A stretch of DNA of 36,013 nt. It comes from Eubacteriales bacterium. Its GTDB lineage: Bacteria > Bacillota > Clostridia > Lachnospirales > Lachnospiraceae. This document shows, piece by piece, positions 193 through 16,756 of the stretch. The stretch covers positions 1-36,013 of the forward strand of contig JAUNDV010000021.1 in assembly GCA_030525875.1 (NCBI GenBank). The letters run 5' to 3'. Under the pieces are notes generated by a model. That model worked only from the letters and a program-made list of their open reading frames with translations, ran no database searches and was not told the origin of the DNA. Position 1 is the first letter of the stretch. The number at the start of each line of letters is the position of its first letter. The position numbers and the translations under genes are program-made.

Positions 193-210
193 AAATAGGA
201 GTGATGAGTG

Positions 211-1368
211 ATGATAGGTCTGATAAATATACAATGGTTTGATAATCCAGGAGCAGTTTTACTGGCGTATGGTTTACAAGAGACTATTAAAAAGCTTCAA
301 CCAAATGAAGAAATAGTGATTATAGACTATGCTGCTGGAGGTTCAAAATCAGCAGATATAAGTTTATCGAAACAGTTATTTTATAAGGTAAAAAATAAAG
401 CTGTTAATGCTATTTTTTATTTAAATTCAGACAATAGAAAATTCAGGTATGAACTTAAATGCCGACATGAAAAATATGAAAATTTTAGATCTGAATACCT
501 GAATAGGACGTCAAGGACAACTGAAACTAATTCGGATATTTTTTTGAAAAAATTTTCTGCCTGTATAGTTGGAAGTGATGTGGTTTGGAAACCTGAAATT
601 GCTGAAGAAGAACATTCAAAAATATATTTTTTACAGTTTGCAGGAAAAAATACAAATAAAATCGCTTATGCAGCAAGTATAGGAACGGATAATATGAGTA
701 TTTTGGAAAAGCTGAAACCAACTTATAAAAATCTTATATCAGATTTTGACTTTATTTCTATGAGAGAAGCAACAGGTGCAAAGTATATAGAAAATCTAAC
801 AGACAAAAAAGTATATAATGTATTAGATCCTGTTTTTTTATTAAATGCTGAAACATATATCAGTCTTATTAAAGATATAGCTCTTCCATGCAAACAAAAA
901 TATATATACTTGTATATGCTTACTTATAATGAAGATTTAGTATCATTAGCTATTAAAATTGCTGAAACAAATAATTATAAAATTATTTATGATTTACACA
1001 CAAAAGAAAATGTTATATTAAAAAACAAGTTTAAGGATAATGGAATAGCATCAGTTGCAACAGGACCTCTTGAATTTCTTTCATTGATTAATAATGCTAG
1101 TATAGTTTTATGTGATTCGTTTCATGGTACAGCTTTTTCAATTATTTTACATAAAGAGTTTTACACATTTGGAAACCACAATGGTGGCATAGATATAAGT
1201 ACAAGAATGAAAGAGCTTTTGGAAAAATTTTCGTTAGAAGATAGGTATGTAAATAATAGTACATTTACTATTAGACCAATAGATTATGCTATAGTTGATA
1301 AGAAAATAGAAAATTATCGTAAAGATTCTATTGATTATCTGAAAATGGCACTAAGTAATTCATTTTGA
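211..1368 (+). CDS. Polysaccharide pyruvyl transferase family protein
   Basis: This is a 385-residue protein of the polysaccharide pyruvyl transferase family (PF04230), whose members move a pyruvyl group from phosphoenolpyruvate onto a sugar as a ketal in capsule or exopolysaccharide. Visible hallmarks are the start MIGLINIQWFDNPGAVLLAYG, a central VGSDVVWKPE block, YAASIGTD, SMREATGAKY, VLDPVFLL, and a late CDSFHGTAFSI segment; S-[RE]-E and D-S-F-H-G blocks are typical of the family. I prefer the ATG at 211, 9 bases after AGGAG (197-201), over the in-frame GTG at 208, which would be only 6 bases away. It follows the presumed flippase and precedes a ferredoxin/F420-dehydrogenase-like gene, a pairing common in Clostridia and Bacteroidetes surface polysaccharide loci. 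The acceptor sugar cannot be told. Confidence 0.85.
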   Translation: MIGLINIQWFDNPGAVLLAYGLQETIKKLQPNEEIVIIDYAAGGSKSADISLSKQLFYKVKNKAVNAIFYLNSDNRKFRYELKCRHEKYENFRSEYLNRTSRTTETNSDIFLKKFSACIVGSDVVWKPEIAEEEHSKIYFLQFAGKNTNKIAYAASIGTDNMSILEKLKPTYKNLISDFDFISMREATGAKYIENLTDKKVYNVLDPVFLLNAETYISLIKDIALPCKQKYIYLYMLTYNEDLVSLAIKIAETNNYKIIYDLHTKENVILKNKFKDNGIASVATGPLEFLSLINNASIVLCDSFHGTAFSIILHKEFYTFGNHNGGIDISTRMKELLEKFSLEDRYVNNSTFTIRPIDYAIVDKKIENYRKDSIDYLKMALSNSF

Positions 1369-1479: not shown

Positions 1480-2673
1480 ATGAGAAATAATATTTCACAA
1501 ATTGAAGATTGCTGTGGATGTGGAGCATGCATGAGTATATGTCCTAAGCAATGCATTTCTTTAAAATATGATAGTGAAGGTTTCTATAAAGCATATATAG
1601 ATGATAGTAGGTGTATTAATTGTGGACTTTGCTTTGACAGATGTCCTGTGAATCCATCAATTACAGGTAAATCAAATGACAAGGCTATAGATATAGTTGC
1701 CTATGCTGCTGCCTCAAAAGATTCTGAAATATATTCAAGAAGTTCATCTGGTGGAATTTTTTCTGTGATTGCAAAAAATGTATTAAGTAAGCATGGCACA
1801 GTATTTGGATGTGGTTTAAATGAAGATTTGAGACCTGTACATATGGCTATCAGAGAAGAAAATGAATTAGATAAGCTCAGAAGAAGTAAGTACGTTCAAA
1901 GCTATATGGGGGATATATACAAGGATGTGAAAGAAAGCCTTGAAAAAGAAACTGACGTTCTTTTTGTTGGTACGCCTTGTCAGATTGCTGGATTAAGAAA
2001 TTACTTAGGAAATGATTACGAGAAGCTTCTAACTATTGATCTTGTATGTCATGGAGTTCCTAGCCCAAAGATGTATATGGATAATATTCATTATATAGAA
2101 GAAAAAAAGAAAGAAAGTTTAAAAAGCTATGATTTTCGCTTGAAATCATTACAGTCAAAGAGATACTTTACATATACATATACATATACATGCGGTAAGT
2201 CTGAAGTCAAGCCTTATTACAAAGATGCATTCTATAATGCATTTTATGATATGCAGTCTCTCAATGAAATTTGTTATAAATGTCCATTTAGCAACATGGA
2301 AAGACAAGGCGATCTGACCATAGGCGATTATGAATGGGGGAAAAAATATCATCAGGAATTTAAAGATTATGATGATATCAGCTGCATTCTATGCAACACA
2401 GAGAAGGGCAGAAGAGCTCTTGATGGAGTAAAGGATGTACTTAATCTTTCTCAGACAAATATAGAATGGATAATCGAAAGAAATAAGAATCTTGTTAGGC
2501 CAACTGTTAGACCAAGTTATAGAAATAAAATTTATGACGATATCAAAAGGCTTGGATATAATAAATGGGCTGACAACTATTTTCATTCATTGCGTTACTA
2601 TAAAAAAACACCATTACTTCAGCCAGCTGTAAAATTAAAAATCAAGTTAAACAAATTGATGGGAAAGGTATAA
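1480..2673 (+). CDS. Ferredoxin / coenzyme F420 hydrogenase-dehydrogenase beta-subunit family protein of polysaccharide locus
   Basis: The 397-residue protein starts with two 4Fe-4S ferredoxin motifs of the form CxxCxxCxxxCP: Cys11, 14, 17, 21 and Cys45, 48, 51, 55. The rest matches the coenzyme F420 hydrogenase/dehydrogenase beta-subunit N- and C-terminal domains, with SSSGGIFS near residue 89, VGTPCQIAGLRNYLG near 164 and DLVCHGVPSP near 188. Family members in capsule loci are usually found beside pyruvyl transferases and are presumed cytoplasmic oxidoreductases; their substrate is not established. The start is supported by AAGAGAG about 8 bases upstream. A 110-base gap separates it from the pyruvyl transferase gene. 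A (ACATAT)3 microsatellite lies inside the gene at 2170-2191 and encodes alternating Tyr-Thr. Confidence 0.85.
   Translation: MRNNISQIEDCCGCGACMSICPKQCISLKYDSEGFYKAYIDDSRCINCGLCFDRCPVNPSITGKSNDKAIDIVAYAAASKDSEIYSRSSSGGIFSVIAKNVLSKHGTVFGCGLNEDLRPVHMAIREENELDKLRRSKYVQSYMGDIYKDVKESLEKETDVLFVGTPCQIAGLRNYLGNDYEKLLTIDLVCHGVPSPKMYMDNIHYIEEKKKESLKSYDFRLKSLQSKRYFTYTYTYTCGKSEVKPYYKDAFYNAFYDMQSLNEICYKCPFSNMERQGDLTIGDYEWGKKYHQEFKDYDDISCILCNTEKGRRALDGVKDVLNLSQTNIEWIIERNKNLVRPTVRPSYRNKIYDDIKRLGYNKWADNYFHSLRYYKKTPLLQPAVKLKIKLNKLMGKV
2170..2191 (+). repeat. In-frame hexanucleotide microsatellite inside the ferredoxin-like gene
   Basis: Three full ACATAT units and a partial fourth (ACAT) run at 2170-2191 and encode a Tyr-Thr alternation. 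The unit is six bases, so gain or loss of one unit would add or remove two residues without a frameshift. Confidence 0.8.
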
Positions 2674-2754: not shown

Positions 2755-3501
2755 ATGAAAGTTTTAGGCGTTATTCCAGCTAGATATGGATCAACCCGTT
2801 TGCCGGGAAAAGCACTTAAGGATATTCATGGACATCCAATGGTTTGGTGGGTATATAAAAGAGTCTGCGAGTCAAAAAGACTCGATGAAGTTATTGTGGC
2901 CACAGATGATGATAGAATTAAAGATGCTTGTGATAAAATGGATATTCCTGTTATTATGACATCTGACATTCATCGTGCAGCAGCAAATAGATTGCAGGAA
3001 GTGTCTGAAAGTATAAAGGCGGATTTCTATCTACAGTTAAACGGCGATGAACCATTAATAAATGTTCAGGCTATCGATGCTGCGATTCCGGATTATGTTC
3101 CTCAAGATGTAGAGTTTGGCACAAATATTATTACAGAATTGAATGATCCTGCACAGCTTATGGATCCGTCAAATATTAAGATGGTTTTCGATGATTCAAT
3201 GAAAGCTCTTTATATGTCGAGAACACCGATTCCATATCCATTTAAATCAATTGATTTTCAATATTATAAACATGTTGGTATTATTGGATATAATAAAAAA
3301 ATGCTTGATTTTTATCAGTCATCCAAGCCAGGTAAGTTTGAGCTAATTGAGGGAATTGATACATTGAGGTTTCTTGACTATGGAAAAACGTTGCAATTAT
3401 CTTTAGTTCATGACTGTCACAGTCTATCTGTAGATACAGAGAAAGATTTGGAAATGGTTATTAAGATGATAGAAGAACAGGGGATTAATTATAATGAATA
3501 A
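2755..3501 (+). CDS. KdsB-like CMP-ulosonic acid synthetase (3-deoxy-manno-octulosonate cytidylyltransferase family)
   Basis: This 248-residue protein has the size and fold signature of CMP-Kdo synthetase (KdsB), which uses CTP to activate 3-deoxy-ulosonic acids to CMP-sugars in the cytoplasm. Nucleotide-binding PARYGSTRLPGK is at residues 8-19 and the metal/CTP motif NGDEP at 96-100; later blocks ALYMSRTPIPY and KHVGIIGY match KdsB. Two substrate-side segments differ from E. coli KdsB as I recall it: DHQSGTER corresponds here to IHRAAANR (His73-Arg79), and the LEQLR block is GIDTLR. That suggests the substrate is not standard Kdo, so I give no symbol. The 3' end overlaps the aldolase gene by 8 bases, so the two are probably translationally coupled. 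A Gram-positive host needs no lipid A Kdo; the capsule context fits an unusual acidic sugar. Confidence 0.85.
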   Translation: MKVLGVIPARYGSTRLPGKALKDIHGHPMVWWVYKRVCESKRLDEVIVATDDDRIKDACDKMDIPVIMTSDIHRAAANRLQEVSESIKADFYLQLNGDEPLINVQAIDAAIPDYVPQDVEFGTNIITELNDPAQLMDPSNIKMVFDDSMKALYMSRTPIPYPFKSIDFQYYKHVGIIGYNKKMLDFYQSSKPGKFELIEGIDTLRFLDYGKTLQLSLVHDCHSLSVDTEKDLEMVIKMIEEQGINYNE

Positions 3502-5080
3502 TAATGATCTGAAATTACTTGATTGTACACTTCGAGATGGTGGCTATGTCAATGACTGGAAATGGGGACATGAAGTTGCTAGGAATATAATTCATGCACT
3601 TACCCAGGCAAATGTTGATGTCGTTGAAGTTGGGTTTCTTAGGAATGTAGATACCTATGATCCAGATATTACTGTATGTAATCACATTGAAGAATTAAAT
3701 AAACTTTTACCGGCTGAAACCGGCTCTACTATGTATTCAGCTATGGCTATGCGTAGTAATTATGATATCAATAAATTATCTCCATACTGTGGTAGTGGAA
3801 TAGAAATGATTCGTATTACTGCCCATGATTATGACATTGCTGATGGTATGGATTTTGCTCGTGCTGTAAAAGCAAAGGGATATAAATTAAGTATAAACCC
3901 AATTAATATTATGGGTTACTCTGATGAACGTATACTTTGGATTTTAAAACAAGTAAATGATATTCATCCATATCAGTTTTCAATTGTAGATACTTTTGGA
4001 AGTATGAAACGAAGAGATCTTGATCGTATTGTTAGTCTCGTAGACAATAATCTTGATAAGGATATAAGAGTTTCTCTTCATTTACATGAAAATATGTCTT
4101 TGAGCTGTTGCCTTGCACAAAATTTCATTGATAGACATTTAAACCGTCCTGTAGCTGTTGATGCTAGCCTGATGGGAATGGGAAGAATTCCGGGTAACTT
4201 GCCTATCGAATTAATTGCAGATTATTTAAATGATTATACAGATAAAGCATATGATATTGATTATATGATGGATGCTATACAGGATTATATTGCTCCTATT
4301 AAAGGAGAAACAAAATGGGGCTATACTCCGGCATATTTCTTATCTGCAAAATTTAATTTACATAGAAATTATGCAGAGCACTACTTGGAAAAGGGTGACC
4401 TGACAAACAGAGACATAAACCATATTTTATCTCGCTTTGATAGAAGTAAAACAACAGCATTCGACAAGGAATATGCTGATAAGCTTTACAATGAATATAA
4501 AGAAAACCATATAGACGATTCAATAGCCAGACTTGAATTAGAAAACAAGCTTCAGGGAGAGACAGTCCTTGTCATAGCTCCTGGCTCATCTATTAATCTG
4601 TATGAAAGTAAAATTAAGCAGTTTATTGAAGCTGAAGATCCAGTAGTAATATCAGTCAATTTCTGTCCATCTAATATAAAAGTAGATTATGCTTTCTTCA
4701 GCAATAATAAACGTTATGACCAAGTTGCTGATTACAATTGTAAAGTAATACTTACATCAAATATGGAAAATTGTAATACAGGTGATTATTTAATTGATTA
4801 TAACAGTGTTTCTGGAGCATTCAATCAAGGATGTAACAGCCTTATTATGGTTTTGAAACTTTTAAAGCAGTCTAATGCTTGTCGTATTGTTGCTGCCGGA
4901 GCTGATGGATATGAGATTGGAAAGAATAATTACTTTACAGGAGCTTTCAGAAGCGGTACATCTCATGGCAACGCATTTAATATTGCAGTAACAGATGCAA
5001 TCAAAGCTCTTGGTGTTAAAGTCGAATTTTTAACGCCTTCAGCTTATAATATGAATAGTGACATAGATATTCAGGGGTAA
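3494..5080 (+). CDS. DRE-TIM (HMGL-like) pyruvate-type aldolase fused to a C-terminal domain resembling DUF115/MAF
   Basis: The protein is a 528-residue fusion. Residues 1 to about 340 are an HMGL-like TIM barrel of the 4-hydroxy-2-oxovalerate aldolase type: CTLRDGGY at 11-18 carries the Arg14-Asp15 pair, HLHEN at 196-200 supplies the metal-binding HxH, and a GMGRIPGN glycine loop follows. Family members make or break C-C bonds at the methyl group of a 2-oxo acid such as pyruvate. Residues from about 355 start LVIAPGSSINLYESKI and later show VISVNF, DYAFFSNNKRY and AAGADGY, recalling DUF115/MptE-like domains seen in glycan and flagellin glycosylation proteins; that match is by pattern only. 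The gene overlaps kdsB by 8 bases and is 3 bases from the HAD gene. I infer that it condenses pyruvate with a (phospho)aldose to give the ulosonic acid that KdsB activates, replacing KdsA. Confidence 0.8.
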   Translation: MNNNDLKLLDCTLRDGGYVNDWKWGHEVARNIIHALTQANVDVVEVGFLRNVDTYDPDITVCNHIEELNKLLPAETGSTMYSAMAMRSNYDINKLSPYCGSGIEMIRITAHDYDIADGMDFARAVKAKGYKLSINPINIMGYSDERILWILKQVNDIHPYQFSIVDTFGSMKRRDLDRIVSLVDNNLDKDIRVSLHLHENMSLSCCLAQNFIDRHLNRPVAVDASLMGMGRIPGNLPIELIADYLNDYTDKAYDIDYMMDAIQDYIAPIKGETKWGYTPAYFLSAKFNLHRNYAEHYLEKGDLTNRDINHILSRFDRSKTTAFDKEYADKLYNEYKENHIDDSIARLELENKLQGETVLVIAPGSSINLYESKIKQFIEAEDPVVISVNFCPSNIKVDYAFFSNNKRYDQVADYNCKVILTSNMENCNTGDYLIDYNSVSGAFNQGCNSLIMVLKLLKQSNACRIVAAGADGYEIGKNNYFTGAFRSGTSHGNAFNIAVTDAIKALGVKVEFLTPSAYNMNSDIDIQG

Positions 5081-5083
5081 CTT

Positions 5084-5599
5084 ATGAATAAAAAATTCAA
5101 ACTGGTTATAATTGATGTAGACGGAACCATGACTGATTCTGGAATTTATTATGATGAACATGGTAATGAGCTAAAGAAGTTTTGTACCAAGGATGCAGCC
5201 GGTTTCTTTGCCGCTCATCAGATAGGATTAAAGATTATGGTCTTAACAGGAAGAGAATGTGTAGCCACAACTCGTCGTATGTCCGAGATGAAGGTGGAAT
5301 ATTTATTCCAAAATGTTAAGAATAAAGTTGAATTCCTCAAAAGATTTATGGAAGAAAATGATATTTGTAAAGATGAAATTATCTATATTGGTGATGATTT
5401 GAATGATCTGCCACCAATGAAGTTAGTTGGATATATTGGATGCCCTCAAGATAGCTGTCCAGAAATTAAAGAAATTGCAGATTACGTTAGTACGGTTAAG
5501 GGCGGATATGGTGCAGTAAGAGATGTGATTGAGCATATTCTTCGTGAGTCTGGAGAATGGGAAGAGGCTATATCAAAGGTTTACGGAATAGGTATTTAA
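5084..5599 (+). CDS. KdsC-like HAD phosphatase (3-deoxy-ulosonate 8-phosphate phosphatase family)
   Basis: This 171-residue protein is a cap-less class C0 HAD phosphatase of the KdsC family. The nucleophile motif DVDGTMTD begins at Asp11 with the second Asp at 13, LTGRE supplies motif II, and GDDLND at 103-108 is motif IV. The tail has [14 protein letters not shown], which matches the GG-x-GAVRE end that in KdsC reaches into the neighbouring active site of the tetramer. KdsC removes phosphate from a 3-deoxy-ulosonate phosphate before CMP activation. The gene follows the aldolase by 3 bases and overlaps nothing if the next gene starts at 5602. Together with the KdsB-like and aldolase genes it completes an aldol, dephosphorylation and CMP-activation sequence, so the aldolase product is likely phosphorylated. 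Confidence 0.87.
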
Positions 5600-5601
5600 A
5601 T

Positions 5602-6303
5602 ATGTTGGAACAATTAAAAAAACAGGTGTTCGAGGCTAATTTAGATTTAGTTGCCAAGGGTGTTGTAATATACACATGGGGTAATGTGAGCGGTATTTCA
5701 GATGACAGAAAATATATGGTCATAAAACCATCAGGTGTTGACTATGAAAAAATGTCTCCTGAAAGTATGGTTGTCGTTGATGTTGAAACGGGTATGGTAG
5801 TTGAAGGAGAGTATAAACCATCATCAGATACAGCAACTCATTTGGAGCTTTATAGAGCATTTTCTGATATGAAAGGTATCGTACATACTCACTCTATAAA
5901 TGCAGTTGCATTTGCACAAGCTGGAATTTCAATTCCAGCTTTAGGAACGACCCATGCAGATTATTTCTATGGAGCTATTCCATGCACAAGAGAGCTTACA
6001 AAACAGGAAGTTATGGAAGCTTACGAAGCCAATACCGGTAAGGTTATTGTTGAATGTATCAATGAATTAGGTTATGCTCCAATGTCAATACCGGGAATCA
6101 TTGTGAAAAATCATGGCCCCTTTGCTTGGGGAACAACTCCTTCAAACGCTGTTCATAATGCCGTTGTTATGGAAAATGTTGCTGAAATGGATTTGAAAAC
6201 ATTAATTTTGAATCCAAATGCTGAAATGAAACAATATGTCCTTGATAAGCATTACATGAGAAAGCACGGCCCAAATGCTTATTATGGGCAAGGGAATGTG
6301 TGA
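5602..6303 (+). CDS. araD: L-ribulose-5-phosphate 4-epimerase (class II aldolase fold)
   Basis: The 233-residue protein aligns along its whole length with E. coli AraD, as recalled from memory. It keeps the Zn ligands His95, His97 and His171, Asp120 (in THADYFYG) and the C-terminal Tyr228 (in AYYGQ). The enzyme interconverts L-ribulose 5-phosphate and D-xylulose 5-phosphate by retro-aldol and re-aldol chemistry. I choose the ATG at 5602, because it gives the classical [14 protein letters not shown] start; the earlier ATG at 5557 would overlap the HAD gene by 43 bases. No arabinose genes accompany it. It sits last in the ulosonic-acid cassette, so it probably supplies or reshapes a pentose phosphate for the aldolase, or does a related aldol step. 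The reaction in this pathway is inference. Confidence 0.9.
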
Positions 6304-6312
6304 TATTTTTTT

Positions 6313-6317
6313 GGAGG
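6313..6317 (+). promoter_or_regulatory. Strong ribosome binding site placed before an ATT codon
   Basis: GGAGG at 6313-6317 lies inside the annotated GTG-initiated frame and 6 bases before an ATT codon at 6324. No ATG, GTG or TTG in that frame lies at the right distance downstream. The position suggests that translation of the HEPN gene starts at a rare ATT codon rather than at the unsupported GTG at 6300. Confidence 0.5.
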
Positions 6318-6323
6318 TTAAGT

Positions 6324-7694
6324 ATTATAGATAAGGATATTATTTATGGAAAATTCGAATTTAATAACAAATCATATCCATTTTTCTTTGCTAATTATAT
6401 AATTACTGTTACACAAACTCCATATGAATTCAATAATGATTTCATTAATAATTATCATTTCGATTATCTTAGAGGTGTAGCTAATAACAATAAATATATA
6501 TTCTTTTTAGACTGTGATATTGTTGGTGGACAACTTGGACCAATTAGTCGTAATCTGCAATTAGTCTGTAAAGGATATGTACTATCTGATTCTTCAGAAG
6601 ATTGTTATGATCAAATTAAATTTTTTTCATCTGCTCTTAATGCTTTTTATTCTCCGCACCGAGCTATTGAAATAAATCATAAGGATATTCTTTTTAGTGT
6701 GCAAGGATTAACATTCAAAAATTATGAGGATACATCACGAAAATTTTCATGTATAATAAATGGAGAGCATATTGATTGTATTTTGCTCTTTCGTTCTTCT
6801 GTTACATTAAAACCAGAAGATAGCAGTATTGTCTCTGTTAATACTACTTTTTCAATGAAATTTTCTGAATCTAAATCTGTTACAAAATTAGCTCAATATT
6901 ATCTTTACTTGCATGATTTTTTAGTGTTTGTTAATTTCAGAGCTGATGTTCCAATAGATAATGTGATTCTTTATAAAAAAGTAGAAAATGAAAAATATGC
7001 TAAAATCGGTACAGCTATGTTTTGTCAACGTGATTGTAGACAATATTCCGCAGATAATAAACGAAGCATTTCATATAATGATCTTCCAGACAAATCTCTC
7101 CCTAATATTTTTTCTAGTATAGGAGAACGCAGGGAGCAAAAATGTTATAATCCTTTTTTTATTCCTTTAGATGACAAGGATGCAAGGTATTTTAACAGTG
7201 CTAAATGGTTAATAACAGCAATTAGCTTTGAAGGTGAATTTAATCGAAAATATCCAGAATACAAATACAATAACGATGAGAAATTTAAAAAAGCTAAAGA
7301 TCTTCTAATTTCAACCATTGACAAAGTTGTAGCAGAATCTGAAGTTTCAATAAATAACAGGTCAAATGCAGCACTTAATAGTTTTCGTAACATTATTAGT
7401 CATACAGATACTACAATTAAAGAAAAATTTCAGTTTTGTATGGATAATTATGTAAATGAAATTACTCCTTTAATTAAAAAATATGTTACTGCAGAGGGTA
7501 TTGATAAAGATACCAATTTTTCACAGGCATATTCAGATTATCGCAATAATATTGCACATGGTTCAATTCTACCTATTTCTAAAACAGAGAAAATTACTTT
7601 TCAGTTAATGAAGTGTTTTATATATGCGCTTATTTTAGAGGCTGGCGGAGTCCCACGCGAAAAAATTAAAGACATTATTACACGAATGTTTTAA
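6324..7694 (+). CDS. ApeA-like HEPN-domain protein (putative anti-phage ribonuclease)
   Basis: The frame is open from a GTG at 6300 to a TAA at 7692-7694, giving 456 to 464 residues. The N-terminal two thirds are beta-rich, and the arrangement YGKFEF, then LDCDIVGG, then RNLQLVCKGYVL, recalls the ApeA N-terminal domain. The C-terminal part is helical and holds RNNIAHG with Arg415 and His420 (counted from the GTG), the Rx4H active-site motif of HEPN ribonucleases. ApeA is a known single-gene abortive-infection protein. The start is unclear: the GTG at 6300 overlaps the araD stop and has no ribosome binding site, while GGAGG at 6313-6317 sits 6 bases before an ATT at 6324, which I take as the start. 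No in-frame ATG occurs for almost 190 codons. The AT-rich composition and position after the capsule genes suggest transfer. Confidence 0.6.
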   Translation: MIDKDIIYGKFEFNNKSYPFFFANYIITVTQTPYEFNNDFINNYHFDYLRGVANNNKYIFFLDCDIVGGQLGPISRNLQLVCKGYVLSDSSEDCYDQIKFFSSALNAFYSPHRAIEINHKDILFSVQGLTFKNYEDTSRKFSCIINGEHIDCILLFRSSVTLKPEDSSIVSVNTTFSMKFSESKSVTKLAQYYLYLHDFLVFVNFRADVPIDNVILYKKVENEKYAKIGTAMFCQRDCRQYSADNKRSISYNDLPDKSLPNIFSSIGERREQKCYNPFFIPLDDKDARYFNSAKWLITAISFEGEFNRKYPEYKYNNDEKFKKAKDLLISTIDKVVAESEVSINNRSNAALNSFRNIISHTDTTIKEKFQFCMDNYVNEITPLIKKYVTAEGIDKDTNFSQAYSDYRNNIAHGSILPISKTEKITFQLMKCFIYALILEAGGVPREKIKDIITRMF

Positions 7695-8370: not shown

Positions 8371-9112
8371 ATGTGTGAATTTAAAATTCAAGAGTTAACA
8401 CTTTTTAATTATAGGAGATTCGAAAATAAAAAATTCATATTAAATCCTCAAATGAATGTTTTTGCTGGAAAGAATGGTTCTGGTAAAACAACTGTATTAG
8501 AAGCTGCCAATGTAATGCTTGGAGCATATCTTGCAGCCTATAAAACTTACGTGCCTTCACGTTTTGTTTATAATATAAAATCAACGGATGTACTACAGAA
8601 AGCGCAAATTTCTGAAGACAACTCAGTTCTTACAACGGGTATGATTTCACAATATCCATGTAAAATCGGTTGTACAGCAAAATGGAATAGATCCCAAGGC
8701 AGATCATTCAGATAATGGGGTTATTCTTCCGTTAGTACTTTATCCCAGTGCAGCAAGATTATGGAAAGATGGAACAGTTCTTCCATTTCAGATGCTTAGT
8801 GACGGCTATAGAAATGTTATAAAGATAATTCTCGATATAGCAACAAGAATGTGTATTTTAAATCCTTATTTAAAAGGAGATGCACTTAAAATGACACCTG
8901 GAATTGTTCTGATAGATGAAATCGATTTAAGCCTTCATCCGACTTGGCAAAAACGTATCATTGGAATTTTAAAAGAACAATTTCCAAAGGTTCAATTTAT
9001 CTGTGCAACTCATTCACCATTTATTATTCAGTCACTTGACGATGGTGAATTAATTACATTAGATCAACCATTAGACACTGAATATTCTGGTGAAGGTATT
9101 GAAGATATTTAG
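8371..9112 (+). pseudogene. Broken RecF/SMC-like AAA ATPase (Septu PtuA-like)
   Basis: Two frames together make one interrupted ATPase. The first (8371-8715) starts MCEFKIQELTLFNYRRFEN and has Walker A GKNGSGKTT at residues 33-41, then stops. Homology resumes one frame over near 8706 (DNGVILPLVLYPSAARLW) and continues through LSDGYRN, Walker B GIVLIDEIDLSLHP and ATHSPFII, ending at 9112. At least one frameshift plus loss of roughly 30 residues is needed near 8690-8715. The second part stops after EGIEDI, where related ATPases continue. ATPases of this type pair with HNH nucleases in Septu-like defence systems, and an HNH-partner fragment follows directly. The reading of the original system is inference. 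Confidence 0.65.
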
Positions 9113-14806: not shown

Positions 14807-14838
14807 ATTGTATATAGTAATTGGAGGTACTTGATATT

Positions 14839-16065
14839 ATGTTATGCCAATTTACATTTAAGAATTTCAAAAGTATAAAAGATGAAATGACTTTTGATAT
14901 GCAGGCAACGGCCATATCAGAGCATGAAGATAGAATCATAAAAGATAGAGATGGTGAACTGTATCTGCCAGTTTCTGCTATTTATGGTCCTAATGGTGGT
15001 GGAAAATCAAATGTACTTGAAGCATTACATTCATTAGTAATAAAAATATTACGACCACTATATGCAACTGATGATAGTAATGATCGTTATTTTCAAATGC
15101 GAAGAACTACTATAGAACCATTTGCTTTTGGTGAACAAGAAAAGGAAAAGCCAACGGAATTTGAATTATTCTTTCGCACTAAAGTTGCTGAATATCGCTA
15201 TGTTTTAACAGTAAAAAAAGATATCATTTTATATGAAAGCTTAGACCGTGTAAAATTTGATACAGGTAGAAAATCGGCTCTTTTTGAACGTTCAAAAGAT
15301 AGAATTGAATTGAAAGGAACATTATCAAGGCTTAAAATAAGTGATGAACTATCTGATACATTGACACTGCTTTCTTATTTGGGAATTACACATAAAAAAA
15401 ATGAAGTTGTAAATGATGTTCTTAATTGGTTTGAATACGGAATTGAGTTTTTAAATTATGGAAATCCTATCCAAGAGCTTAAGGTAGCAATCGCTACTTC
15501 TGAAGATGTAAAAAAGCTTTTTTTACAAATGATTCAGGAGATGGATCTAGATATTACAGATTTTAGATTTGAAATAAAGGAAAATGACAGAGTAGTAGTT
15601 TACACCAAACATGTTGTTTGTGATAATGAATTTGAACTTAATTTATCTGAAGAGTCAAGCGGCACACAGAAGCTTTTTGGTCTTTTACCTTTTATTGCAG
15701 ATAGTCTTGTTACAGGAAAGACACTTGTTATTGATGAATTAGATGCTAAAATTCACCCTGCTTTATTGCGGTATATTATAATGTTATTTAATGATATGAA
15801 AATTAATCAACATGGGGCACAATTAATTTTTACATCACATGATTTATCTACAATGAATAGTGATGTATTCAGAAGAGATGAGATTTGGTTTGTCGCAAAG
15901 GGGAATCAGCAGAATTCAAAACTTTATTCTTTAGTTGAATTTAAAACAGAAAATAATAAATCTGTTCGTAAGGACGCTAAATTTGATAAACAGTATCTAG
16001 AAGGTAAATATGGGGCTGATCCATACCTCAGAAAGATTATAGATTGGGGGAAAGTCAATGCCTAA
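14839..16065 (+). CDS. AAA_15/AAA_21 ATPase of an AbiL/RloAB-like defence pair
   Basis: The 408-residue protein is an SMC/RecF-like ATPase. It starts FTFKNFKSIKDEMTFDMQA and has Walker A GPNGGGKSN at 50-58, an ESSGTQKLFGLLP signature, Walker B TLVIDELDAKIHP and FTSHD near the C-terminus. I choose the ATG at 14839, 10 bases after GGAGGT, rather than the TTG at 14821 that begins within that site. The 3' end overlaps the RloB gene by 8 bases. RloA-RloB pairs and the two-component AbiL system have this layout and act as phage abortive infection or are suspected to; assignment here is by pattern. All ATPase motifs look intact. Confidence 0.8.
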   Translation: MLCQFTFKNFKSIKDEMTFDMQATAISEHEDRIIKDRDGELYLPVSAIYGPNGGGKSNVLEALHSLVIKILRPLYATDDSNDRYFQMRRTTIEPFAFGEQEKEKPTEFELFFRTKVAEYRYVLTVKKDIILYESLDRVKFDTGRKSALFERSKDRIELKGTLSRLKISDELSDTLTLLSYLGITHKKNEVVNDVLNWFEYGIEFLNYGNPIQELKVAIATSEDVKKLFLQMIQEMDLDITDFRFEIKENDRVVVYTKHVVCDNEFELNLSEESSGTQKLFGLLPFIADSLVTGKTLVIDELDAKIHPALLRYIIMLFNDMKINQHGAQLIFTSHDLSTMNSDVFRRDEIWFVAKGNQQNSKLYSLVEFKTENNKSVRKDAKFDKQYLEGKYGADPYLRKIIDWGKVNA

Positions 16066-16756
16066 AAAAGCAGGAATGGAAGTATGGAAGAAAAAGCGTT
16101 TACAAGAACATCTTGAAAAGAAAGAATTCAGATATTACATCTTTTGCGAGGGTCAACAAACAGAACCGTCATACTTTCAAGGATTTAAGAATTGTATTGA
16201 GGAAAATCCAATTTATCGTGATATGGTATTGATAGAAATAGAACCATGTCAAGCAGAGACACTGCGAGTTATCGGTATGGCAGAGAAGTATATTAAGAAA
16301 AATAAAATAGATAAAGGCCAAATTTGGTGTGTATATGATAAAGATAGTTTTCCAGCTAAAGATTTTAATGGTGTAGAAAAAAGAGCGGAACTTTTAAATC
16401 AAGAAAATCCAAATTTGCAATACAACACGGCTTGGAGTAATGAATGTATTGAATTTTGGTTTCTTCTTCATTTTGCTTACTATACGTCGAATAATTATCG
16501 AACAGAATATATATCATTTTTGAATGATAAATTTATAAAATTAGGAATTGGAAAATACCAAAAAAATATGAAAGATATATTTACAATTCTTCAAAATAAT
16601 GGCAATCCTAAGTTGGCTATTCGATACGCAAAACGTATTATCAAAGATGGACAAGGGGAGTTACCATCAAATATTGCTCCAGGAACTAAAGTATATGAGT
16701 TAGTAGAGGAACTTGTGAAATATTTTCCGGAAGAAATAAAGAAAAAATATATCTAG
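16058..16756 (+). CDS. RloB-family protein (Toprim-like partner)
   Basis: This 232-residue protein has the RloB start: YYIFCEGQQTEPSYFQGF with the conserved Glu31 and Thr35, then a WCVYDKDSF block and SNECIEFWFLLHF. These acidic motifs resemble a Toprim-type metal site. The gene overlaps the preceding ATPase by 8 bases, indicating coupled production. In AbiL/RloAB-like systems the RloB protein is taken to be the effector controlled by the ATPase. The frame is intact and ends 53 bases before trpS. Confidence 0.82.
   Translation: MPKKAGMEVWKKKRLQEHLEKKEFRYYIFCEGQQTEPSYFQGFKNCIEENPIYRDMVLIEIEPCQAETLRVIGMAEKYIKKNKIDKGQIWCVYDKDSFPAKDFNGVEKRAELLNQENPNLQYNTAWSNECIEFWFLLHFAYYTSNNYRTEYISFLNDKFIKLGIGKYQKNMKDIFTILQNNGNPKLAIRYAKRIIKDGQGELPSNIAPGTKVYELVEELVKYFPEEIKKKYI

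Follow-up and report, generated by a model that had tools for sequence, protein, structure and literature searches.

By what route could a Gram-positive bacterium supply a surface polysaccharide with a cytidine monophosphate (CMP)-activated ulosonic acid if the cassette that appears to make it encodes a KdsB-like enzyme and no KdsA? The question is raised by contig JAUNDV010000021.1 of Eubacteriales bacterium (Lachnospiraceae; GenBank assembly GCA_030525875.1), the 36,013 nucleotides of which form the window analysed here. To our knowledge, the established pathways for the biosynthesis of CMP-activated ulosonic acids begin with a phosphoenolpyruvate (PEP)-dependent synthase, KdsA or NeuB. The core of the cassette in the window is instead a KdsB-like CMP-synthetase, a DmpG-type pyruvate aldolase and a haloacid dehalogenase (HAD) phosphatase; an AraD-like gene that follows is not part of this core (Table 1). 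The cassette likely encodes a route that depends on neither KdsA nor NeuB and leads to a CMP-activated 3-deoxy-2-ulosonic acid, destined for a surface polysaccharide. The aldolase would condense pyruvate with a phosphorylated aldose to give a phosphorylated 3-deoxy-2-ulosonate, the KdsC-like phosphatase would, judging by its family, strip the phosphate, and the KdsB-like enzyme, judging by its family and its intact catalytic core, would link the free acid to CMP for use by glycosyltransferases presumably encoded elsewhere in the locus, past the contig end. AraD would be an add-on that is dispensable for the core pathway. An earlier note on this DNA had proposed pyruvate condensation, dephosphorylation and activation by cytidine triphosphate (CTP) as the work of four genes; context and fold support this sequence of steps, the chemistry of which is still a proposal, with AraD outside the core.

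The assembly was searched whole (1.83 Mb, 97.75% complete). Neither KdsA (best match 117.8 bits, cut-off 314) nor the KdsD/KpsF isomerase (25.6 bits, cut-off 203.7) was found over its cut-off, and the absence of KdsA and KdsD from the cassette, which had been pointed out before, thus holds genome-wide at these cut-offs. No clear NeuB was found in the assembly either, the sole match being weak (39.8 bits, above the Pfam cut-off of 22.1). The best matches of the KdsA and NeuB profiles fall on one gene of the DAHP_synth_1 family on contig C25 (PF00793, 268.5 bits). The earlier note had also considered a KdsA or NeuB gene just upstream: neither is clear in the genome, and the sequence upstream of base 1 is cut off by the contig end, as the window is the entire contig (C20).

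The co-occurrence survey suggested in that note was run on 195 genomes (194 relatives and the genome of the window itself). The kdsB profile scored at least 100 bits in eight genomes, five of them over the curated cut-off, and the next best match scored 61.3 bits. An aldolase was found on the KdsB contig in all eight (and in all five over the curated cut-off), adjoining in six and within about 7 kb in two. KdsA over its cut-off was missing from seven of the eight; it was present in four of the 195 genomes, a single one of which belongs to the strong-KdsB set, so KdsA and KdsB are mostly uncoupled in this set. With aldolase matches of E = 1e-55 or better in 30 of the 195 genomes, co-occurrence in eight of eight has a hypergeometric probability of 1.3e-7, uncorrected for relatedness.

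Further bacterial loci were collected as the 33 strongest of 81 non-window places together with six from a protein search. In these 39 loci the aldolase is partnered by a KdsB-type enzyme (13), a NeuA-like enzyme (six; assigned by clustering and the residues at positions 100–101, without a Pfam search), an acetolactate-synthase-like thiamine diphosphate (ThDP) enzyme (13) or none of these (seven). Of the 14 KdsB-type cassettes, the window counted, 11 include a HAD phosphatase of the KdsC or another type. The closest named relatives from the protein search are metagenome-assembled genomes (MAGs) of Lachnospiraceae/Lachnoclostridium (75, 72 and 70% identity); more distant ones, also MAGs, come from Spirochaetaceae (69%), Fretibacterium (64%) and Treponema (57%). 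On a plasmid of Leisingera caerulea S216 the aldolase (K3726_RS21635), KdsB-like (K3726_RS21640) and HAD (K3726_RS21645) genes are consecutive within a glycosyltransferase region, and Leisingera sp. M527 has the same row. The KdsC profile does not match the Leisingera HAD protein, and cassettes have therefore probably acquired their phosphatase on more than one occasion. Three of the bacterial aldolase loci also contain polysialyltransferase-like genes (PF07388; a search confirmed two of them). On the aldolase tree, which was obtained by a quick search and has several long branches, the partner type changes 18 times; the KdsB, ThDP and fusion labels are clustered and the NeuA-like label is not (148 of 500 shuffles were as low).

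Some aldolase relatives stand in other surroundings. In L039, L040, L043, L048 and L056, from the genus of the window, the relative adjoins a trmK-type gene, with dnaG- and NIF3-type genes in four of the five and a uridine-kinase-like gene in three; no sugar-nucleotide gene was recognised near these aldolases (families were searched in L048 and the others were judged by cluster). A 1066-residue open reading frame (ORF) at L060:6466-9666 (minus strand) combines, in a single frame, a GT2-type stretch with an aldolase domain. On a Desulfobaculum bizertense plasmid (L168), a one-domain aldolase relative adjoins RfbH and a split pair of transketolase genes, which may be another carbon-ligase partner.

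Viral contigs were scanned with the aldolase alignment, which gave 62 loci. In 40 of these the aldolase and a cytidylyltransferase are joined in a single polypeptide of 535–589 residues, except for one that is cut short; 11 loci have a neighbouring synthetase, ten a neighbouring ThDP enzyme, and one is ended by the contig edge. The 40 fusion loci contain near-identical contigs and represent 28 distinct aldolase-domain sequences, one of which (L096) is fused to a NeuA-like domain. Terminase was found in six of the 20 viral records tested, including five of the six fusion contigs longer than 100 kb, and these fusion contigs, at least, are therefore phage. The fusion was not found among 50,697 named phage records, nine of which matched in one search, none over 80% of the query, and one in another. 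Separately, Synechococcus phage S-SCSM2R (PQ898602.1 211906-212604) has annotated KdsB and KdsA genes side by side, so the ordinary PEP-type pair is also phage-borne.

Structure predictions and comparisons covered the window and its sequence-search relatives (16 and 10 sequences), without the 33 genome-derived regions. The aldolase domain is predicted to have a DmpG-like fold across 326 residues. Its Arg14, Asp15, His196 and His198 align to Arg17, Asp18, His200 and His202 of 1nvm and are kept in 37 of 37 rows; we take this Arg-Asp pair and the His-x-His motif to be the active-site residues of DmpG. Fold and active site agree with the reading of this protein in the earlier note as a DRE-TIM pyruvate-type aldolase, as does the PF00682 match; its second domain had been overlooked. 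HMG-CoA (3-hydroxy-3-methylglutaryl coenzyme A)-lyase-like catabolism, which had been named as the alternative, is not clearly favoured by the fold ranking. The ThDP enzymes that are the other partner of these aldolases are usually accompanied by CDP-glucose genes, and a HAD phosphatase is often added in both the CMP-synthetase and the ThDP contexts. In PMC12247030, YerE is described as coupling CDP-3,6-dideoxy-4-keto-glucose with a 2-oxo acid, and a preference for 4-hydroxy-2-oxo acids as donors is reported for the related ErwE. From their context, the ThDP enzymes beside aldolases would be YerE-like. 3-Deoxy-2-ulosonic acids belong to the 4-hydroxy-2-oxo acids, so the KdsB and ThDP contexts would both require a product of the kind that DmpG-type aldolases make.

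The sugar pocket of the CMP-synthetase differs from that of ordinary KdsB. The window enzyme passes the TIGR00466 cut-off (161.3 against 155.2 bits) and does not reach that of the equivalog PRK05450.1-1 (143.6 against 281). Nine positions that we take to form the core (Arg10, Arg15, Lys19, Asp100, Glu101, Arg157, Glu207, Arg213 and Asp235 in E. coli numbering) read RRKDERERD in the window, in Leisingera and in E. coli. The pocket signature was defined by E. coli KdsB positions 98, 181, 183, 185, 210 and 211, the last five of which are presumed sugar contacts. At position 98 the E. coli enzyme has Gln, which hydrogen-bonds the sugar (PMC2901514), and the window has Asn; PMC3149649 contains none of the names of contact residues that were looked for in it. 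Ten control KdsBs without an aldolase within 3 kb (picked from 30 listed among 71 matching plasmid records; L170 and L177 are unannotated) all have the pocket QHGYEQ, and four of them adjoin annotated kdsA or KpsF-type genes. One control, L179 (annotated as a manno-octulosonate cytidylyltransferase, adjoining kdsA), combines this pocket with a different core (RRKDAKERN). Five KdsBs from the PDB are also QHGYEQ (three judged by eye). The signature was found in none of the 47 scorable rows among 48 aldolase-partnered KdsB-type rows (L094 is truncated and went unscored, and the KdsB of L041 was lost to an overlap filter). Seven rows (the window, L032, L033 and L066–L069) read NHGIDT and 30 read QQCYEI, including viral fusions, Leisingera and two relatives (L036 and L038); MVGQDL, QQGYEI and QQCYEL occur twice each, alongside four single signatures, among which L042 (QHGYEP) is one residue from the control signature. 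These rows include near copies, and the counts are not independent. As QHGYEQ occurs in 0/47 partnered and 10/10 control enzymes, the sugar of the window cassette is probably not ordinary 3-deoxy-D-manno-octulosonic acid (Kdo), as far as sequence can tell. A third signature, MVGQDL, is found in the KdsB-type enzymes L065:5823-6554 and L070:7259-7987, where the residues suggest yet another sugar.

Production of ordinary Kdo, with the aldolase joining pyruvate to D-arabinose-5-phosphate and KdsC and KdsB acting as in Gram-negative bacteria, would fit the passing of the kdsB equivalog cut-off and the KdsC type of the phosphatase, and the clade of L042 might still make Kdo. Against it, no KdsD over cut-off is there to provide arabinose-5-phosphate, the pocket departs from QHGYEQ in every scorable partnered enzyme and in no control, and the sugar-bonding Gln98 is replaced; we regard it as quite improbable. 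Alternatively, the 4-hydroxy-2-oxo acid made by the aldolase might go elsewhere, for example into a ThDP-dependent branched sugar or catabolism, with KdsB and KdsC activating a sugar of other source. The company that its relatives keep with ThDP and CDP-glucose genes and the frequent switching of partners speak for this; no ThDP gene was found beside the window cassette on the contig (large ORFs only), the aldolase is fused to a CMP-synthetase in viral loci, and 11 of 20 genomes with aldolase and CMP-synthetase have neither KdsA over its cut-off nor a NeuB match of at least 100 bits. We therefore hold this second alternative to be very improbable. Several observations nevertheless weigh against a route independent of KdsA and NeuB. 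NeuB reaches at least 100 bits elsewhere in nine of those 20 genomes and KdsA exceeds its cut-off elsewhere in two; 17 of the 20 exceed the PF03102 cut-off of 22.1 bits, eight of these through weak NeuB matches alone (37.9 to 42.1 bits), at sites that the KdsA profile also matches below its cut-off. MAGs may also lack genes through incompleteness. In the aldolase, Tyr18 stands where DmpG has His21, and the 4-hydroxy-2-oxovalerate aldolase models score 60.6 and 71.5 bits against cut-offs of 286 (TIGR03217) and 229. No phosphatase was matched by the KdsC profile in the fusion loci and none was recognised in three of the 14 KdsB cassettes, while seven of the 39 bacterial loci have an aldolase with neither CMP-synthetase nor ThDP enzyme, five of them adjoining the housekeeping gene trmK. 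The independent route is supported in that gene content, linkage, fusion, predicted fold and the residue switch agree; context and fold support its logic well, and we infer pyruvate use, the acceptor, the product and a sensor role for the second aldolase domain.

This C-terminal domain is predicted to have the sialyltransferase/Maf/MptE fold (Maf- and CstII-like). PF01973 does not match it in the window; viral stand-alone homologues of the domain score 23.8 to 31.5 bits, below the cut-off of 34.6. Pro363-Gly364, Asn389, Asn404, Arg407 and Asp471-Gly472 are near invariant. A cytidine nucleotide or CMP-sugar is the probable ligand of the domain, which would most likely act in feedback sensing or docking and not as a transferase. 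Were it a working glycosyltransferase, one polypeptide would make and transfer the sugar. The likeness to Maf and CstII is in keeping with this, as are His491, which by sequence order (without superposition) we take to fall at the expected CstII base, and the stand-alone homologues that immediately precede the aldolase in viral L095 and L121 and lie one gene off in L136. A histidine at the position of His491 is, however, confined to a few closely related sequences (5 of the 31 rows that have a residue at this point), while other residues are near invariant, and the domain also occurs without a CMP-sugar gene nearby. A general transferase role was rejected on the lack of conservation of that histidine, and activity as a transferase in the window protein is unlikely. 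The role of AraD was weighed similarly. It matches the subfamily PRK08193 over its cut-off (360.9 over 257) and does not reach the equivalog TIGR00760 (343.2 against 389.1). As an essential fourth enzyme it might set the stereochemistry of the pentose or act on the ulosonate as a C4 epimerase, again through retro-aldol chemistry. Its gene starts 2 bases after KdsC and encodes the sole class II aldolase of the genome, and the absence of AraA from the genome implies no ordinary arabinose catabolism. AraD is nonetheless absent from the 169 loci compared, save two that carry the window's own stretch, and thus from the six other NHGIDT loci, all of which have DNA downstream of the aldolase. Directly after AraD the GC content falls from 0.376 to 0.28, and the stretch that follows has a gene with no Pfam match and the fragments of a broken PtuA-like gene. 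An essential role is distinctly unlikely, and AraD may supply a pentose, epimerize the product or be unrelated. The four-gene cassette of the earlier note accordingly becomes three genes and an accessory.

Table 1. Features at the start of the window (coordinates in nucleotides of the contig).
Feature	Coordinates	Strand	Remarks
Polysaccharide pyruvyl transferase-like protein	208..1368	+	PF04230, 107 bits; surface-polysaccharide context
Ferredoxin/FrhB-type protein	1480..2673	+	PF04432 and Fer4 families; context
KdsB-like CTP:ulosonate cytidylyltransferase, altered sugar pocket	2755..3501	+	248 residues; PF02348, 155.2 bits; TIGR00466, 161.3
Aldolase gene, two domains	3494..5080	+	528 residues; PF00682, 61 bits
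Aldolase domain, DmpG-type metal-dependent pyruvate aldolase	3494..4510	+	residues about 1–339
C-terminal domain of aldolase gene, sialyltransferase/Maf/MptE fold	4511..5080	+	residues about 340–528
KdsC/Kdn-9-P-phosphatase-like HAD phosphatase	5084..5599	+	171 residues; TIGR01670, 131.5 bits
AraD-like L-ribulose-5-phosphate 4-epimerase, accessory	5602..6303	+	233 residues from ATG 5602; PF00596, 169.5; PRK08193, 360.9

The four ORFs and their coordinates are as the earlier note had them, including the overlap of 8 bases between the KdsB and aldolase genes and the gaps of 3 bases before KdsC and 2 before AraD; a second in-frame ATG for the AraD-like ORF lies at 5557. Its family assignments for KdsB and KdsC also stood, the latter passing the TIGR01670 cut-off of 106.95 bits with the tail GGYGAVR, of the GGxGAVR type described. 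His95, His97, His171, Asp120 and Tyr228 of AraD, which we take to be its zinc-binding and catalytic residues, are all in place. Upstream of the cassette, PF04432/FrhB-type proteins are, we presume, frequent in polysaccharide loci. Downstream, a 464-residue ORF (6300-7694, GC content 0.28) overlaps AraD by 4 bases and has no match in Pfam, NCBIfam or PADLOC. Two short ORFs at 8371-9112 match the N-terminal and a later part of PtuA-type ATPases and seem to be the remains of a disrupted Septu-like ATPase gene. An AAA_14/DUF4143 ATPase at 11988-13244 matches the PADLOC candidate PDC-S01 (505.5 bits), and an AAA ATPase and RloB-like pair at 14821-16753 is a candidate AbiL defence system (PADLOC AbiLi, 286.8 bits; AbiLii, 101.2 bits).

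A wider model is offered tentatively, at somewhat less than an even chance. Two-domain pyruvate aldolases would form a general and modular supply of 4-hydroxy-2-oxo acids to cell-surface and phage glycans: with, or fused to, a re-specified CMP-synthetase they would yield a range of non-Kdo 3-deoxy-ulosonic acids without a PEP synthase, and with a ThDP ligase long-branched CDP-sugars, the sialyltransferase-fold domain would sense the cytidine-activated end product, and some phages would carry the aldolase-synthetase as a single enzyme. No title on a pyruvate aldolase feeding a CMP-ulosonate synthetase turned up in the open-access literature, subscription papers being mostly uncovered; several of the searches were unspecific, and the result is weak evidence of absence. 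If the independent route is true, it is a second solution to CMP-ulosonate synthesis, and the annotation of such genes as Kdo synthesis is wrong. Undescribed acidic sugars would then be predicted on gut Lachnospiraceae, spirochaetes, roseobacters and phages, and the viral fusion enzyme would serve as a ready-made catalyst that turns pyruvate, sugar and CTP into CMP-sugars.

The closest known systems compare as follows. With the Kdo pathway (KdsD-KdsA-KdsC-KdsB) the cassette shares a KdsC-type phosphatase, a KdsB-type CMP-synthetase and the logic of a phospho-ulosonate that is dephosphorylated and then linked to CMP; it differs in having a pyruvate aldolase in place of PEP-dependent KdsA and KdsD, and in the altered KdsB pocket. 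The phosphatase reaches neither the KdsC equivalog PRK09484 (133.8 against 208 bits) nor NF058599, the Kdn-9-P phosphatase (146.3 against 180). We take the NeuB/NeuA nonulosonate and Bacteroides Kdn (2-keto-3-deoxynononic acid) pathways as further comparison systems: a phosphatase near NF058599 and CMP activation are common to both, and some aldolase loci have a NeuA-like partner, whereas the window has no NeuB-type synthase. The 4-hydroxy-2-oxovalerate aldolases DmpG/BphI share the fold over 326 residues, the Arg-Asp pair and the His-x-His motif, but the window protein has Tyr for His21, an extra C-terminal domain, scores below the cut-offs and a CMP-synthetase rather than an acetaldehyde dehydrogenase as neighbour. 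Aldolase relatives occur near ThDP and CDP-glucose genes, as in the YerE/ErwE branched CDP-sugars (erwiniose and caryophyllose); the window has a CMP-synthetase and neither an adjoining ThDP enzyme nor CDP-glucose genes. The Maf/CstII superfamily and MptE share the fold of the C-terminal domain, which differs in its fusion to an aldolase and in the unconserved base histidine. One-pot chemoenzymatic synthesis of CMP-sialic acids couples the NanA aldolase with a CMP-synthetase. The two-step logic of pyruvate aldolase and CMP-synthetase is the same, but that synthesis is a laboratory trick with a catabolic enzyme, whereas the pair described here is apparently natural, biosynthetic and sometimes fused, with an aldolase of another class.

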